From assembly GCA_022925895.1 (NCBI GenBank), contig JAKSYS010000661.1, forward strand, positions 1 to 34,379: a DNA stretch of 34,379 nucleotides, in the 5' to 3' direction. Shown piece by piece: positions 22,487 through 30,925 of this stretch. Under the pieces are notes generated by a model. That model saw only the letters and a list, made by a program, of their open reading frames with translations. It did not search any database and was not told where the DNA came from. Numbering within the stretch: position 1 is the stretch's first letter; each line of letters begins with the position of its first letter. This stretch comes from Fragilaria crotonensis (lineage: Eukaryota; Bacillariophyta; Fragilariophyceae; Fragilariales; Fragilariaceae). The translations under genes were made by a program, and so were the position numbers.

Positions 22487-22491
22487 GGCGC
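22487..22491. repeat. Target-site duplication, left (GGCGC)
   Basis: GGCGC directly precedes the 5' LTR and is repeated at 28016-28020 directly after the 3' LTR. A 5-bp duplication is the normal footprint of a copia-type integrase. Confidence 0.92.
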
Positions 22492-22840
22492 TGTTGAATC
22501 TAGCTGACGGGACCAGCTGGCCGAGTACGAACGGACATGTCGGATCGGACGGTTGGGTCATGGAGAGGGCAAAACCTTCTAAACGGATGTCGCACGGGAG
22601 CGAACAGTCTCCGAGTGTTATGCGTGCAGGGTCACGTATGAATAGCGGATCCCGTGTGAACTGGGCGGAATTGTCCACGGCTGAACGGAATGAGATTATT
22701 GGAGAAGATGAGATAGATAGTCTCACTTTAAATTAATTATCCGGTTTACAAGCGATTCGACCACCACAATTAATCACATCACATCCGGATCTGTTATCTG
22801 ATTGATACAGAGGATTGGTCTGTAAATTGTGGTTTCAACA
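22492..22840 (+). repeat. 5' LTR
   Basis: It begins TGTTGAATCTAGC and ends GTGGTTTCAACA. Its first ~245 bp carry an open frame equivalent to the C-terminal end of pol. The stretch CTTTAAATTAATTAT at 22726-22740 is complementary to sequence just after the LTR. Confidence 0.93.
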
Positions 22841-22854
22841 TAATTAATTTAAAG
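22840..22854 (+). other. Putative self-complementary primer-binding site
   Basis: ATAATTAATTTAAAG spans the last LTR base and the first 14 bases of the internal region, where copia elements carry their primer-binding site. It is the perfect reverse complement of 22726-22740 inside the LTR, 99 bp upstream. No usual match to the 3' end of initiator tRNA (TGGTA...) is seen at the junction. This resembles the Tf1 arrangement, in which the 5' end of the transcript folds back to prime minus-strand synthesis. The function is inferred. Confidence 0.5.
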
Positions 22855-22871: not shown

Positions 22872-25800
22872 ATGACGACCCCACGAGTAAAGTGGAAGCC
22901 GGAGACGGTTCATCTAATAACAAGGATAGCAAGGAAGGAGCTGGTGACGCCAAGAAGGGCAAGTCAACTTTTCCAAAGGTCCATACAGGCATGCTTCAAG
23001 CGTCAAGTTCGACGGAAGCTGCGAAGACCTCAAGGGTCACATATTCGATTGTGCCGACGTGAAACAGTCGGACATCTTCGTCGAAACCACCAAGGCGATT
23101 GCAATCTACGTTGGAGCAAAATACAAGTATGGAGCCGATACATCCACTGCAGTCGAGACCCTGGAGGAGCAGATCATTGAAGTCCCACCGCCATGTGCCG
23201 ATGTCGAAAACCCAACCTTGAAGAGGATTTGGGAGAAGAAGATTGATGAATACGTGAAGAGGACCACCTACATCGAGGAAAATAACAAAACGTTATATTC
23301 TCTCGTTTGGGGTCAGTGCACGGATATCATGCAACAGAAGGTCAGATCGAGTGAAGGTTTTGATGTTACGATGAAGACGAAGAACGGAGTCGGGTTGTTG
23401 ACAGCAATCAAGAACATCGCATTCTCGTTCGAAGGTCAGAAGTATCACCCTTTGTCTTTGCTTGAAGCGAAGAAAAGGTTCCTAAACCAAGTTCAGGGAC
23501 GAACTGTCACAACCCAGGCATACTACGAGAAATTCCGAAATACAATGAATGTGTTGAAGGCAATTGGCGCTGACATCGGATTAGATTCCGGGATGCGTAA
23601 GATCCTGAATGGAGACAGGGACATGTCGACAATGACTTCCGATGAAAGAAGGCAATCGACGAAGAAGTCGTTGAACGCTTCATGGCCATCACGTTGCTCA
23701 TGGGAGCTGATCGCACGCGTTACGGAAGATTGTTGGATAATCTTGAAAACGAATTCGTCGCAGGTCACGACAACTATCCCAAGACCTTAACCGACGCGTA
23801 CAATCGTCTGGTTTACTTCACCAAATCAGGCGAGCAGAATGGACTTAAGGGAATCAGTGGAGGCGAGGTCGCCTTTGTCAACGCTGAAGGAAAAAAAAGA
23901 AACCAGCCAAAAGCGAAGTCGAATGCCGTCGCTGCAAGAAAAAGGGCCATTACGCAAGTGAATGCGACAATGAACGGTACATTGAGGGAGCAGAGGCGAA
24001 GCCAAAAAGCATACCGGAACCACGCTACTCACCGATGGAGTTTACGACGCGGACTTTCTTGACGATCAGCCGGACTACTCTGAGTTCCAGTTCATTAATC
24101 ATGACGTCACCATGAACGAAACCGCAGTCACCATGCAAATCGGAAGAGATGGACGGTTGCCACGCACTTGGATATTGCTCGACAACCAGTCGACAGTTGA
24201 TGTCTTCTGCAACCGGGAGTTGCTGTCCAACATTCGTGAGCACGAGAGCACGATGGATATTCACTGCAATGCAGGTATCACCAGTACAAAATTGATCGGC
24301 GAGCTACAAGGCTACGGGACAGTTTGGTATAATCCTAAAGGTATTGCAAACATCCTATCTCTTTCACGTGTCAAGGAACGTGGGTACCGTGTGACTTTCG
24401 ACAGTTCGGACGGAAATGCCTTTCACCTTCATAAATCGGATGGTGGCGTTCGCATTTTCACCCAGTCCGACAAGGGGCTTTACTATTTGGACACTCAGGA
24501 GGACACCACGGGGGTGAGCCTTGTCAACACAGTAGCTGATAAGGCTACTAAGTACTCGGAACGGGATTACTCGAAGGCTAAGCTGGCGCGCTCGATACAA
24601 AAGATTATCGGACGTCCAAGTACAAGGACATTCATCTCCATCGTTGAAAAAAACCAACTCCCTAATTGTCCTGTGACTCGAGACGACATTATCGCCGCAG
24701 AACGTATCTTTGGGCCCGATCTCGGGTCATTGAAGGGGAAAACCGTACACAAGCGTCCGGATCCTGTCAAAATTGACCATGCAAACATCCCAGGGTCGGT
24801 TGTCTCGCGGTACCGAAATGTAGTGCTGGCCGGCGATATTATGTTTGTTAACAAGTTGCCATTTTTCGTAACGATTTCACGACATATCAAATTCGGCACT
24901 TCGGAGCTCCTCACGAATCGAAAAATCGAAACTATCTTCGAAGCGACAAAACGAGTATACCAACAGTACATGAAACGCGGTTTCAAAATCACGAGCATAC
25001 TAATGGATGGCGAATTCGACACTGGCGGTTATCGTGGCGAACTGTCTGCACTTGGGATCACGCTCAACGTCGTCGCAGCTGAGGAACACGTCCCCGAGAT
25101 CGAACGTCACATTCGTGTCATCAAAGAACGCGCACGCAGTGTTATCAACACGTTACCGTTCGACAAGGTGCCCGCACGTGTGATTATCGAATTGGTTTAT
25201 TACTGCGGCTTCTGGCTCAACAGTTTTCCCGCTGCCGGTGGCATCTCTGACACGATGAGCCCTCGAGCCATTGTCGTCGGAACGACGGTTAATTATGCCA
25301 ACCACTGCAAGGTCGAGTTTGGCGAATATGTGCAGACGCACGAACCACACGACAACAGCATGCAATCACGAACTGTCGGCGCGCTTGCTGCGTCCTACAG
25401 GAAACGCCCAAGGAGGACATTATTTCTACAGCCTCGCCACCGGACGGCGACTCAACCGCAACCATTGGACATCGCTCCCTATGCCCGCCGAAGTCATCGA
25501 TCGTGTACACGAATTATCCCATCAAGCCCCCGGTGCCCCGCTGATTGAATTTGCAAACCGGGCAGGAGTGCCTTTCGATGACGACGATCTCCAAGACGAC
25601 GACATTTATGACGGCGACAACGATAATGCTGATGACGATGACTACAATCCCAACGAGGATGACAACGTTGAGATTGCAGGAGTGGATGATGAAGGAAGCG
25701 ATGACGAGGAAGTCCACGATGACGATAATGATGACGATGCTGATGACGATGATAATGACGATCAAAACGACGACGATCAAAACGATCAAAACGACCACAT

Positions 25801-27911
25801 CGCCAATCTTGCAAACACCGGAGGAGCCCCCGAAACTTTTGAGCCAGTCGAGCCCACCGAAATCGGTCCAATCGAACCTGTCGAACCTGTCGAAATCGAA
25901 CCTGTCGAACATACAATTGAGGAACAAATGGATGAAGCATATGGACCACGCAACAGTGAATACAACTTACGTCCACGCAAGCCACGCGACTATGGTCACA
26001 TTCACACGATCCTGGAGTCGACAGCGATGACACAACATAGTGTAAAAAAAGGGCTGAGATTGTTCGGCGACAAAGGAGTTGACGCGGTCATGAAGGAGCT
26101 AGACCAGCTCCACGTCCGAAAGGTTCTGAAACCAACAAAAAACCTTAACTGTAAGGAGCGACGTGACGCGTTGCAATATCTCATGTTCCTGAAGGAAAAG
26201 AGAAATGGTATCATCAAAGCCCGCGGATGTGCGGACGGGCGGAAGCAACGAGCGTTCACAACCAAAGAAGAAGCAAGTTCTCCAACAGTTTCAATCGAGT
26301 CGGTCATGTTATCTTGTGTAATTGATGCAAAGGAGCGTCGTGATGTCGCAACTGTTGATTTGCCTGGAGCGTTCATGCAAGCTGACATGGAGGACACAGT
26401 TCACATGAAACTTGAGGGCAAAATGGCCGAGCTACTTGTGAAATGCGATCCCAAATTATATCGAGTACGTTCAAATGGAAAACGGAAAGAGGTTCTATAC
26501 GTACAGCTGACAAAAGCACTCTATGGAACGCTGAAGGCAGCACTGTTGTTCTGGAAGAGGTTGAGTAAACAACTGATTCAATGGGGTTCAAACTAAACCC
26601 ATACGACAGCTGCGTTGCGAACAAAACAATCGACGGTAATCAATGCACCATCCTTTGGCATGTCGATGATCTGAAGATCTCACATGTGGACCCAAAGGTC
26701 GTGACGGATGTGATTGAGTTGCTTAAGTCCGAGTTTGGAAACGAGGCTCCATTGACCATTACACGTGGCAAGGTACACGAATACTTGGGGATGACCATTG
26801 ACTTTAGCATCGACGGCAAGGTCATGTTTAAGATGTTTGATTATATCAAGACGATGTTGGACGAACTACCAGCTGACTTTGGCGGAACCGCTCCGAACCC
26901 AGCGAGCATGAAGCTGTTCGATGTCGACCCAGCGGCGGCACGAATTTCAAAGAGTTGGGAAAATTGTTCCATCACAATACCGCCAAGCTGCTATTTCTCT
27001 GTAAGCGAGCTCGACCGGATGTACAACCACCAACGGCTTTCCTGTGCACTCGAGTGAAGGATGCTGACGTCGATGACTATAAAAAACTGCGTCGAGTCAT
27101 GCAATACCTGCGCGGGACGGCGCTTATGCCTTTGACATTAGAAGCTGATGGCATGAGCATCATCAAGTGGTGGGTGGATTCATCGTTCGCGGTGCATCCC
27201 GATATGAAGGGTCACACAGGTGGCATGATGACATTGGGAAAAGGCGCAATTTATGGGACATCGACTCGCCACAAAATTAACACAAGAAGTTCGACCGAAT
27301 CGGAGCTGGTGTCTCTATATGACGTTATGCCACAGATACTATGGACTAGGTATTTTCTCGAAGCCCAGGGTTATGGAGTAAAAGAGTCCATTGTGCATCA
27401 AGACAACAAGAGCACTATTCTACTCGCGGAAAACGGGAAGGGCTCCAGCAGTAAAAGAACGCGACATATCGAGATCCGTTACTTCTTCGTTAAAGACAGA
27501 ATTGATTCTGGGGATCTTACAGTTAAGTATTGCCCCACTGGAGAAATGATTGCGGACTACTTTACCAAGCCATTGCAGGGTGCATTGTTCACGAAACTTC
27601 GCAATGAGATTATGAATGTCAATCCTGATCACGTCGACTACGCGCTTGAGGATTGCAGGAGTGTGTTGAATCTAGCTGACGGGACCAGCTGGCCGAGTAG
27701 TACGAACGGACATGTCGGATCGGACGGTTGGGTCATGGAGAGGGCAAAACCTTCTAAACGGATGTCGCACGGGAGCGAACAGTCTCCGAGTGTTATGCGT
27801 ACAGGGTCACGTATGAATAGCGGATCCCGTGTGAACTGGGCGGAATTGTCCACGGCTGAACGGAATGAGATTATTGGAGAAGATGAGATAGATAGTCTCA
27901 CTTTAAATTAA
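22872..27911 (+). CDS. Retrotransposon Gag-Pol polyprotein (frame interrupted)
   Basis: The ATG at 22872 starts a Lys/Gly-rich Gag N-terminus. Then follow the diatom copia Gag block KFDGSCEDLKGHIFDCADVK (from about 23005) and a CCHC zinc knuckle CRRCKKKGHYASEC at about 23924. Next are a protease with LLDNQSTVDVF (Asp-Asn-Gln instead of the usual D-S/T-G) and an integrase core with DIMFVNK, MDGEFD and VPEIERH as likely D, D, E. A Glu/Asp/Asn and Glu-Pro-Val spacer (25573-25920) leads to reverse transcriptase with LPGAFMQADM and HVDD in place of YVDD. RNase H follows with VDSSFA, STESELVSL and HQDNKSTILL. I could not find a typical HHCC finger ahead of the integrase core. Frame changes lie near 22883, 23000, 23670, 23890, 24060, 25390, 26572 and 26958; those checked base by base fit single-base losses. 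The last frame runs on into the 3' LTR and stops at 27911. Confidence 0.9.
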
Positions 27912-28015
27912 TTATCCGGTTTACAAGCGATTCGACCACCACAACTATTCACACCATATCCGGATCTGTTATCTGATTGATACGGAGGATTGGTCTGTAA
28001 ATTGTGGTTTCAACA
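27664..28015 (+). repeat. 3' LTR
   Basis: Same ends as the 5' LTR. It is 3 bp longer (an extra TAG within GAGTAGTACGAACG). The pol frame continues through its first 248 bases to a TAA at 27909-27911; the self-complementary segment is at 27901-27915. Confidence 0.93.
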
Positions 28016-28020
28016 GGCGC
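28016..28020. repeat. Target-site duplication, right (GGCGC)
   Basis: Directly follows the 3' LTR and equals 22487-22491. Confidence 0.92.
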
Positions 28021-28821: not shown

Positions 28822-30925
28822 ATGAAGATCTCTTGCAACGCGTTCGTTTCCATCCTCCTTCTCCTCGGGTCACACTTGACCGAGACGACTGTTGCTTTTC
28901 AACTGACTCCATTGACTACTACAACATCTACAAGAACTTCTACAGCTCGATTGGCAACGATTGCTCCCAATGGAGCGTCATCCATGACATCATCGGCACG
29001 GGATAGTACAACTGTCGCTGCCGCACCCAAAGGCTCAACGTTGGAGAAAGAGTACCAAACAAGTGGTTACTTTGGGACCAGCATCGGACAATCGTGAAAT
29101 GATTGAAAAATTATTTCTCGCAGGTGCCGATGTCTTTCGTCTCAATTTTTCTCATGGATCACAAGAACAAAAAAAAGAATTGTTGGATACGATTCGTCAA
29201 GTCGAAGAAAAGTATTCTCATCCCATTTGTGTTTTGGGAGATTTGCAAGGACCAAAATTGCGTGTCGGAGAATTCTCCAAGGAATATGAAATTCTAGAGA
29301 AGGGACAAACCTTTCGTCTCGATAGTGATTCGGCCAAGGGTGACAACACTCGTGTCATGTTGCCACATCCTGAAATTTTGGCGGCAAGTGAAATTGGACA
29401 TTCACTCTTGGTCGATGATGGGAAAGTCAAATTGACAGTCATTGGAAAAGCACAAGACAATACATGGTTGGATTGTCGTGTTGATGTTCCAGGAAAGATT
29501 AGCAATCGCAAGGTACGTTGTTGTTGTTTGTTTGTATGTATTGTTTTTATGCATGTTCAGTCGTATTCGCCACGTTACTCACACACACACACTATCCACA
29601 CACAACAGGGTGTCAACACTCCAGATTCCATCCTTGAAATTAGTCCATTGACCCCCAAGGACCGTTCGGATTTGGAATACATGTTGGGAATTGGGGTCGA
29701 TTGGGTCGCCCTCTCTTTTGTTCAGAGACCATCTGACATTGAAGAAATCATCCAACTCATTGATGAAAAGTTACCACCAGGACAATTCAAACCATGCATC
29801 ATGGCCAAGATTGAAAAGCCATCGTGCTTTGATGGTGACAATTTGGAAAAGATTGTCGAATTGTGCAATGGAATCATGGTGGCACGTGGTGATTTGGGTG
29901 TCGAATGGTACGTCGTATTTGTTGTTATTGTTATCATTGTTATTATTCCTTGTCCAATCTGTATATATACTCATTGTACTTGTTCACCTCGTTTTACCAC
30001 AAAACGAACACATACATGCACGTTACCCACACATATACACACAGCCCACCCGAAGATGTTCCATTGTTGCAAAAACAAATCATTGATGAATGTCGTCGAC
30101 AGGGAACACCCGTGGTGGTTGCCACTCAGATGCTCGAATCCATGATTGATTCTCCCACCCCCACTCGTGCCGAAGCCAGTGATGTGGCGACTGCCATTTA
30201 CGATGGTGCGGATGCCATTATGCTTTCCGCCGAGAGTGCTGCTGGCAAGTATCCCGAAGAGAGTGTTGCCATGCAACAACGCATCATCAACCGTGTCGAA
30301 AGTGATGGTCATTATCGTAACCTATTGGAACAGAATGCTCCATCGCCTGGCAATACACCCACGGATGCCATGATTGTGGCAGCCCGACAAATTTGTCAAA
30401 CCATTAGTGCCAAGGCCATTGTTTGCTTTTCTCTTCGTGGAACGACGGTCTTGAGAGCATCCAAGAAGAGACCATCTGTTCCAATCTTGGCTCTTTGTCC
30501 TTTCAAGGAGACGGCACGTCAGTTGGCTCTCAGTTGGGGTGTCTACCCTGATTTGCCAAAGGCTGGATCGTATGGATATTCTGTCTCGGAAGATGACATG
30601 TTCAATGATGGACGTAAGTGTTGTTATATTGATTCGATTGTGACAATTGTGTGCTTGGAAATCAAATGTTCTGACTGTATTTTGCCCTCCCCTGTTCTCA
30701 TTATAATACTACACAGCCATGATTGAACGTGATACGGATGATTTTGATCTTGTCCTTCGTAACGCATGCCGTGCCGCCCTCAAGAAGGGACTCGTGAATG
30801 ACCCCAATGATCTCTTGGTGGTCACGGCAGGACTTCCATTCGGTACTCCTGGTGCTGCCAACGTTCTGCGCATTGTTCCTGCGGCAGGACCATCGTGCTG
30901 GGATGGAGTCTGCCGTGTCGATTAA
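28822..30925 (+). CDS. PYK: Pyruvate kinase, plastid-targeted type (three introns)
   Basis: Pyruvate kinase converts phosphoenolpyruvate and ADP to pyruvate and ATP. The start at 28822 gives a signal peptide ending at TTVA/FQL, followed by a Ser/Thr/Ala-rich transit-like stretch. A Phe at +1 of the cleavage site is the diatom plastid-import signature. Exons are 28822-29512, 29609-29907, 30045-30613 and 30717-30925, all joined by GT-AG introns. Motifs are [35 protein letters not shown], the active-site IMAKIEKPS with its Lys, ARGDLGVE with the Mg-binding acids, and TQMLESMI...[10 protein letters not shown]. The C-terminal regulatory domain follows ([15 protein letters not shown]). About 590 residues. 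One extra G at about 29043-29044 breaks the frame between the transit region and the catalytic domain; the second frame reads cleanly from RKSTKQVV. It converges with the helicase gene, 114 bp apart. Confidence 0.93.
29513..29608 (+). other. Intron 1 of pyruvate kinase
   Basis: GTACGT...CAACAG, 96 bp, phase 0, with a CA microsatellite. It contains no stop in frame, so unspliced RNA would stay open. Confidence 0.88.
29908..30044 (+). other. Intron 2 of pyruvate kinase
   Basis: GTACGT...CACACAG, 137 bp. Removal joins ...GDLGVE to [13 protein letters not shown], as expected for the family. Confidence 0.85.
30614..30716 (+). other. Intron 3 of pyruvate kinase
   Basis: GTAAGT...CTACACAG, 103 bp. 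Removal joins ...DDMFNDG to [14 protein letters not shown] in one frame. Confidence 0.87.

Follow-up and report, generated by a model that had tools for sequence, protein, structure and literature searches.

How does a Copia-type retrotransposon begin reverse transcription when the sequence that follows its 5' long terminal repeat (LTR) resembles no ordinary tRNA primer site? Most LTR elements prime with a tRNA, and the question is raised by an element that occupies positions 22492-28015 of contig JAKSYS010000661.1 of the diatom Fragilaria crotonensis (the window: 34,379 nt, labelled C626 and one of 881 contigs in a 62-Mb assembly). Matches to silicon transporters (19 rows, best E 4e-193) agree with a diatom host. 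A sequence-only reading of the window had claimed that this copia-type element carries a striking 15-bp complement between its LTR and the bases that follow, retains the LTR word in its 3' LTR, lacks an ordinary tRNA primer site and may therefore prime itself in the manner of the yeast element Tf1. Each of these claims held up in our analysis, and the proposed self-priming is, moreover, a property of a whole reverse transcriptase (RT) lineage, a larger claim than the one first made for a single element. We put the probability that this copia lineage uses its own RNA 5' end to prime reverse transcription, as Tf1 does, at roughly 0.88.

The element is bounded by LTRs of 349 nt (5') and 352 nt (3'), which differ by 6 substitutions and one 3-nt indel (98% identity over 300 nt), have TG..CA termini and are flanked by a 5-bp target duplication, as in Ty1/copia elements. 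Its reading frames are broken, so that it represents a frameshifted copy. The sole Pfam match is to the copia-type RT RVT_2 (PF07727; 38.9 bits against a cut-off of 31.6), which sets the element apart from the Ty3/gypsy chromoviruses that include Tf1/sushi; a long open piece precedes the RT, where integrase would lie in the copia order, but has no Pfam match. Starting at the first base after the 5' LTR, the 14 bases at 22841-22854 are the exact reverse complement (14/14) of a word within the LTR at 22726-22739, and the T after this word (22740) provides a fifteenth pair with the last A of the LTR; the complement described earlier thus consists of 14 pairs plus the terminal A. The word recurs in the 3' LTR at 27901-27914 (27915 with the fifteenth base). 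In the readable 62-Mb assembly the 14-mer was counted nine times, three related elements each contributing one word, one site and one 3' copy of the word, and none of the element's 4,794 internal 14-mers has a reverse complement in the 5' LTR.

To see how the word and the site behave in relatives, we turned to the rest of the genome. With the LTR and leader as query, a DNA search gave at least 27 places. At 16 of these, amounting to all 16 of the 5' junctions, the next bases exactly complement the word of that same LTR (3 in family A, 3 in family B and 10 in family C). No complement follows the remaining 11: eight (L004, L005, L006, L011, L013, L015, L025 and L026) are placed as the 3' LTRs that belong with listed 5' LTRs, L008 comes after an RT match, as expected of a 3' LTR, L009 departs from the family short of the LTR terminus, and the sequence that follows L010 is the same as that after L008. 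Two positions of the word are changed between A and B and two between B and C, and every change is matched in the site. In the case of more distant relatives, found as 104 RT rows, LTR zones were fetched for 20 elements, and 16 of these could be delineated by their own LTR pairs. All 16 (9/9 and 7/7) carry a perfect 13-15-nt complement at the LTR end, to a word that sits 109-146 nt upstream of that end; a single uniform rule applied to the same elements yields complements of 14-16 nt, the LTR end included, in 16/16. Some words are shared within this group (C120 = C55; C9 = C870b = C108a; C136 = C62). RT identity to the target element goes down to about 40%, and the site sequences are diverse (for example TTGTTTCGAGATAA and GTTTTAGTAAAGTA). 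Relatives also have words of mixed composition, such as TTCTCGCGAAACAA.

Covariation between the two words had been named as a check on the proposal, and they do change together. The set analysed comprised 33 elements, which reduce to 16 distinct word/site sets; the 17 rows outside families A-C had to have A as the base preceding the word and an LTR terminating in CA, a rule that no row failed, and the word length of C685 was set manually to 13 nt. Across the 16 sets, 222 of 223 pairs are Watson-Crick and the other is G.U. When sites were dealt at random among the sets, the mean was 119.8 and the maximum 176, and 0/20,000 deals reached 222, a result that is not to be read as a probability because the sets are related. 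Pairs changed on both sides number 12/15 in an alignment of seven leaders, where both unpaired cells come from C685, and 7/15 in one of eight, and no pair in either alignment varies on one side only. Sliding the register lowers the paired share to 34-59%. Furthermore, in ten comparisons of near sets, some of which share members, all 17 word changes are matched in the site (17/17).

The helix also ends sharply. Directly before the word stands [C/T]A in 16/16 distinct sets (TCA in 14), with a T opposite this A in just one of the 16, while T and C follow the word in every set. Such an end beside [C/T]A fits a transcript start at this place, and the onset of complementarity may, judging from the sequence, be what is expected of an initiator near 22725. 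In the target's own family the context of the word fits the oomycete-type initiator YCAYTYY; we set this motif aside as a loose analogy, because a diatom is reported, in the available passages of PMC3599244, as apparently lacking the INR+FPR and FPR motifs. In four relatives (L043, L045, L063 and L065) part of the site sequence recurs, as seen by eye, immediately before the predicted start, and an inverted repeat spans that start.

When the leaders were folded, as had also been suggested, the best structure held all 14 primer:site pairs in 16 of 17, and the seventeenth, C685, formed the primer helix in its own 13-nt register. Hairpins between word and site are predicted as well, weakly supported by covariation. 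The sequence-only reading had pointed to additional pairing in this interval, and part of that observation stands: the 5' leader can form ACCACAATT/AATTGTGGT, and a helix of different sequence at about the same place is predicted, again with weak support, in four close families (A, B, C and C870a). The exact stems, by contrast, are not a conserved feature, since the target element's own 3' LTR has ACCACAACT and neither ACCACAATT/AATTGTGGT nor TTTACA/TGTAAA is retained in sister families B and C.

We then compared the sites with host tRNAs, using 22 stretches that form part of at least 63 tRNA matches. No match longer than 7 nt links any of the 16 distinct site words to these stretches, so that within this incomplete set no site complementary to a host tRNA was found, and, as the target 14-mer is confined to the three related elements, no assembled tRNA has it. 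A tRNA primer was rejected as far as the assembly and the 22 stretches reach. As controls, 20 more distantly related Copia elements from the same genome were fetched, of which C862 and C142 had no LTR pair, leaving 18. A junction complement of more than 8 nt was present in 0/18, both against the 5' LTR and against the 3' zone; the rule was the one used for the proposed self-priming lineage, where the offset range was slightly wider, and the 3' zone, with its second copy of the LTR, was added because the fetched zone had cut short the 5' LTR of five controls (C350, at 108 nt, C34, C521, C171 and C207).

The controls have tRNA-Met sites or a palindrome instead. Four carry CGCTTCCTCTGCGC and five GGTTATGAGCCCAA as their site, both of which match host tRNA-Met at 14/14 positions; one host tRNA-Met (L167, G000:C37:64748-64777) complements the two sites in its D-arm and anticodon arm, and two Copia lineages seem, from these matches, to use different internal parts of one tRNA-Met. 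Three elements (L095, L097 and L099, on C521, C171 and C207) have the site GGTTA(T/C)TTTGCCCAA, which resembles the anticodon-arm site GGTTATGAGCCCAA with an altered middle; one of its two forms was compared with the tested tRNA stretches and matched none over more than 7 nt. Six controls (L083, L087, L089, L091, L093 and L101, on C733, C80, C81, C243, C515 and C537) have CGTTT..AAACG as their first post-LTR bases; in 5/6 this is a perfect palindrome of 12-14 nt, and in C243 one base is off. The one form of this site that was compared had no long match in the tested tRNA stretches, and by analogy with the hairpin site of the fungal element GalEa the palindrome may represent a further priming mode. 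Of the 40 rows in an RT tree, the 22 of the proposed self-priming lineage, all with tested junctions, form one group (100/100; 0.974 on 123 well-filled columns). As these rows were collected by similarity to the target and the controls by a Pfam profile, the tree describes clustering and is not a count of origins.

Outside this genome, a contig from another sample with 55% RT identity (L169) has a single LTR followed by the apparent start of an internal region. Between its word CTAATTTCTGATAA and its site TTATCAGAAATTGG there are 14 pairs, one of them G.U, in the same register after CTCA. A second copia contig (L168) ends upstream of the site. Both are filed under bacterial metagenome-assembled genomes (Rhizobacter sp. 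and Flammeovirgaceae bacterium), which likely reflects misbinning or, for L168, a chimera, because the rest of its contig looks bacterial by eye. Viral contigs, plasmid records and phage records that were scanned held no relatives.

These observations can be assembled into a mechanism. Transcription would start at the A of TCA at 22725, and the next 14 bases, as their strict complementarity and covariation suggest, would fold back onto the 14 bases after the LTR. The element's RNase H would, as in Tf1, cut after 22739, and the freed 3' end would be extended into U5. After strand transfer the word would be copied again from the 3' R, and second-strand synthesis would copy the RNA primer, so that each cycle writes the new site afresh from the primer. 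Copying of this kind would account for the exactness of the complement and for its constant end point across families, and it would leave the word free to drift, as the 16 different sets, one of them in another sample, suggest. We lean, by a little, towards the fuller proposal that the lineage gained self-priming apart from Tf1/sushi, with a primer set by the transcription start, a site rewritten each cycle, a freely drifting word and independence of tRNA. If this is true, the element needs no host tRNA and escapes control by tRNA fragments.

Several points weigh against self-priming. The transcript start, the RNase H cut and the use of the primer are all three inferred, from position, register, covariation and the precedent of Tf1. 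Of the 20 RT relatives fetched, four fell outside the test: the 5' zone of C398 lies beyond the contig end, and C427, C44 and C874 had no LTR pair even in wider zones, where a scan found no complement. Just one tested element comes from beyond this genome, and the tool used for the RT tree warned of long branches that meet. Finally, in a crude test, the bases that follow the site paired with those that follow the word in the LTR better than shuffled sequences by more than 2 standard deviations in 0/20 leaders; of the two further duplexes of the Tf1 'pretzel', the one downstream of the site thus gained no support, and an internal helix near the end of U5 is predicted.

Other explanations of the complement have to be set against this evidence. 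A word with A or T at 13 of its 14 bases invites the suspicion of a chance complement in A+T-rich sequence, but the absence of any second such match among the internal 14-mers, the nine occurrences in the assembly, the mixed words of relatives such as TTCTCGCGAAACAA and the covariation of word and site make the likelihood of chance negligible. That a host tRNA, a tRNA fragment or another small host RNA acts as primer, with the LTR match incidental, would agree with the habit of most LTR elements and with the nine control Copia elements whose sites match tRNA-Met. Every family would, however, require its own tRNA, changing along with its LTR, and given also the restriction of the target 14-mer to three elements and the lack of tRNA matches above 7 nt for all 16 sets, we regard this as very improbable; the negatives cover assembled sequence and an incomplete tRNA list, which a spliced or edited tRNA would escape.

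Could the helix instead be conserved for another role of the RNA 5' end, such as dimerisation, packaging or hiding the cap from translation, with a different primer at work? A helix of 14-15 pairs at the 5' end could have such effects, but its 3' arm starts in every set at the first post-LTR base, where a primer must sit, it ends with the last A of the LTR (with T after the word in 16/16 sets), and no tRNA match to the post-LTR place was found among the 22 stretches; we judge this role, in place of priming, to be a poor prospect. Priming in trans, in which the site is bound by the 5' end of another genomic RNA packaged in the particle, is a variant of self-priming, and its odds overlap with those given for it. 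Sequence cannot tell cis from trans, and particles of retroelements generally contain RNA dimers, but the best structure of the leaders, folded in cis, contains the primer helix, and we consider priming in trans unlikely. Taken together, these comparisons favour self-priming by the element's own RNA, and the features on which it would depend are collected with the others in the table.

Features of the Copia-type element in the window, with the basis of each assignment
Feature	Position	Strand	Basis
Left target-site duplication GGCGC (right copy 28016-28020)	22487-22491		Read directly
5' LTR, TGTTGAA...TTCAACA, 349 nt	22492-22840	+	Identity to 3' LTR, ends and target-site duplication
Predicted transcription start (A of TCA)	22725	+	[C/T]A directly before word in 16/16 distinct sets
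Putative self-primer word CTTTAAATTAATTA	22726-22739	+	Pairs with site at 14/14 positions; covariation across 16 distinct sets
Predicted RNase H cut	after 22739	+	By analogy with Tf1
Remainder of R-U5, with predicted internal hairpins between primer and site	22740-22840	+	Folds; weak covariation
Putative primer binding site TAATTAATTTAAAG	22841-22854	+	Complement of word
Open piece, gag region	23329-23790	+	No Pfam match; putative gag by position
Open piece, protease/integrase region	24112-25548	+	No Pfam match; putative assignment by position
N-terminal half of Ty1/copia-type RT (RVT_2)	26000-26593	+	PF07727
Presumed RNase H end of pol	27099-27911	+	No Pfam match; frame crosses U3 of 3' LTR, TAA inside primer word
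3' LTR, 352 nt	27664-28015	+	LTR alignment
3' LTR copy of self-primer word	27901-27914	+	14-mer search

The frame at the end of pol, which we take from its motifs to be the RNase H end, reads through U3 of the 3' LTR (27664-27911) and has its stop codon within the self-primer word. Read in the 5' LTR copies of six near families, in the frame it has in the window, pol stops no more than 11 nt from the predicted start. A fixed spacing of stop and start is contradicted by C870a, whose 3' LTR copy is shifted and whose pol stop lies about 90 nt before the word, and by six more distant elements, with stops between about 70 nt upstream and about 60 nt downstream of the word start. The ratio dN/dS of the pol stretch in U3 is 0.31-0.68 in 4/5 comparisons, the fifth being saturated. 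Beyond the element, open frames at 29099-30726 resemble, and may represent, a pyruvate kinase gene split by introns.

How does this lineage compare with known systems? Half-tRNA-primed copia elements, for example Drosophila copia, have their counterpart in the sister elements of this genome that match internal parts of host tRNA-Met, whereas the target lineage is without such a site. The best-known self-primers are Tf1 and its relatives: in the available passages of PMC7175516, PMC4600332 and PMC10085805, Tf1 and Tj1 are Ty3/gypsy chromoviruses, and the Tf1 primer is the first 11 nt of the RNA, cut between nucleotides 11 and 12. As far as those passages go, Tf1/sushi and the lineage described here have in common an RNA 5' end that complements the post-LTR site, an LTR ending in CA and the lack of a tRNA site. 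In contrast, the diatom lineage has a copia-type RT and a primer of 13-15 nt rather than 11, it is known from sequence alone, and further duplex beside the site was unsupported in the crude test.

Within Ty1/copia, the sequence-only reading was aware of no self-priming, and this has to be corrected: in the available passages of PMC6317226, the plant TAR lineage is predicted to self-prime, Houba and Osr-1 having been proposed earlier. That prediction uses a complement no shorter than 10 bp, at an offset of 0-5 bp from the LTR. The target element has 14 bp at offset 0, and it shares with TAR, on that partial account, both membership of Ty1/copia and a predicted self-primer in the 5' LTR. The likeness is one of complement, and covariation is shown here, whereas those passages report none for the TAR prediction. 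The fungal element GalEa is, according to the available passages of PMC5445492, a copia that lacks a tRNA site, has a conserved hairpin site and shows no complementary repeat in U5. It shares the lack of a tRNA site with the present lineage, for which the LTR complement is nevertheless the defining feature; from what those passages say, the palindrome lineage of this genome looks closer to GalEa than the target lineage does.

The CoDi elements are likewise Ty1/copia of diatoms; the strings 'tRNA' and 'self-prim' are absent from the text of PMC2806351, and 'PBS' and 'primer binding' from that of PMC8147415. Titles and abstract openings in the open-licence literature searched, outside which most subscription papers lie, make no mention of self-priming in diatom copia. 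Elements of this kind in protists will be overlooked when genomes are searched for tRNA-type sites. In the literature available to us, self-priming has been demonstrated for the yeast Ty3/gypsy element Tf1 and, in plant copia, predicted only. To these the present copia lineage adds many natural compensatory changes, together with tRNA-Met-site Copia lineages as controls in the same genome, and two questions therefore become testable, namely the frequency of switches between priming modes and the possible release of a self-primed element from host tRNA and from control by tRNA fragments.
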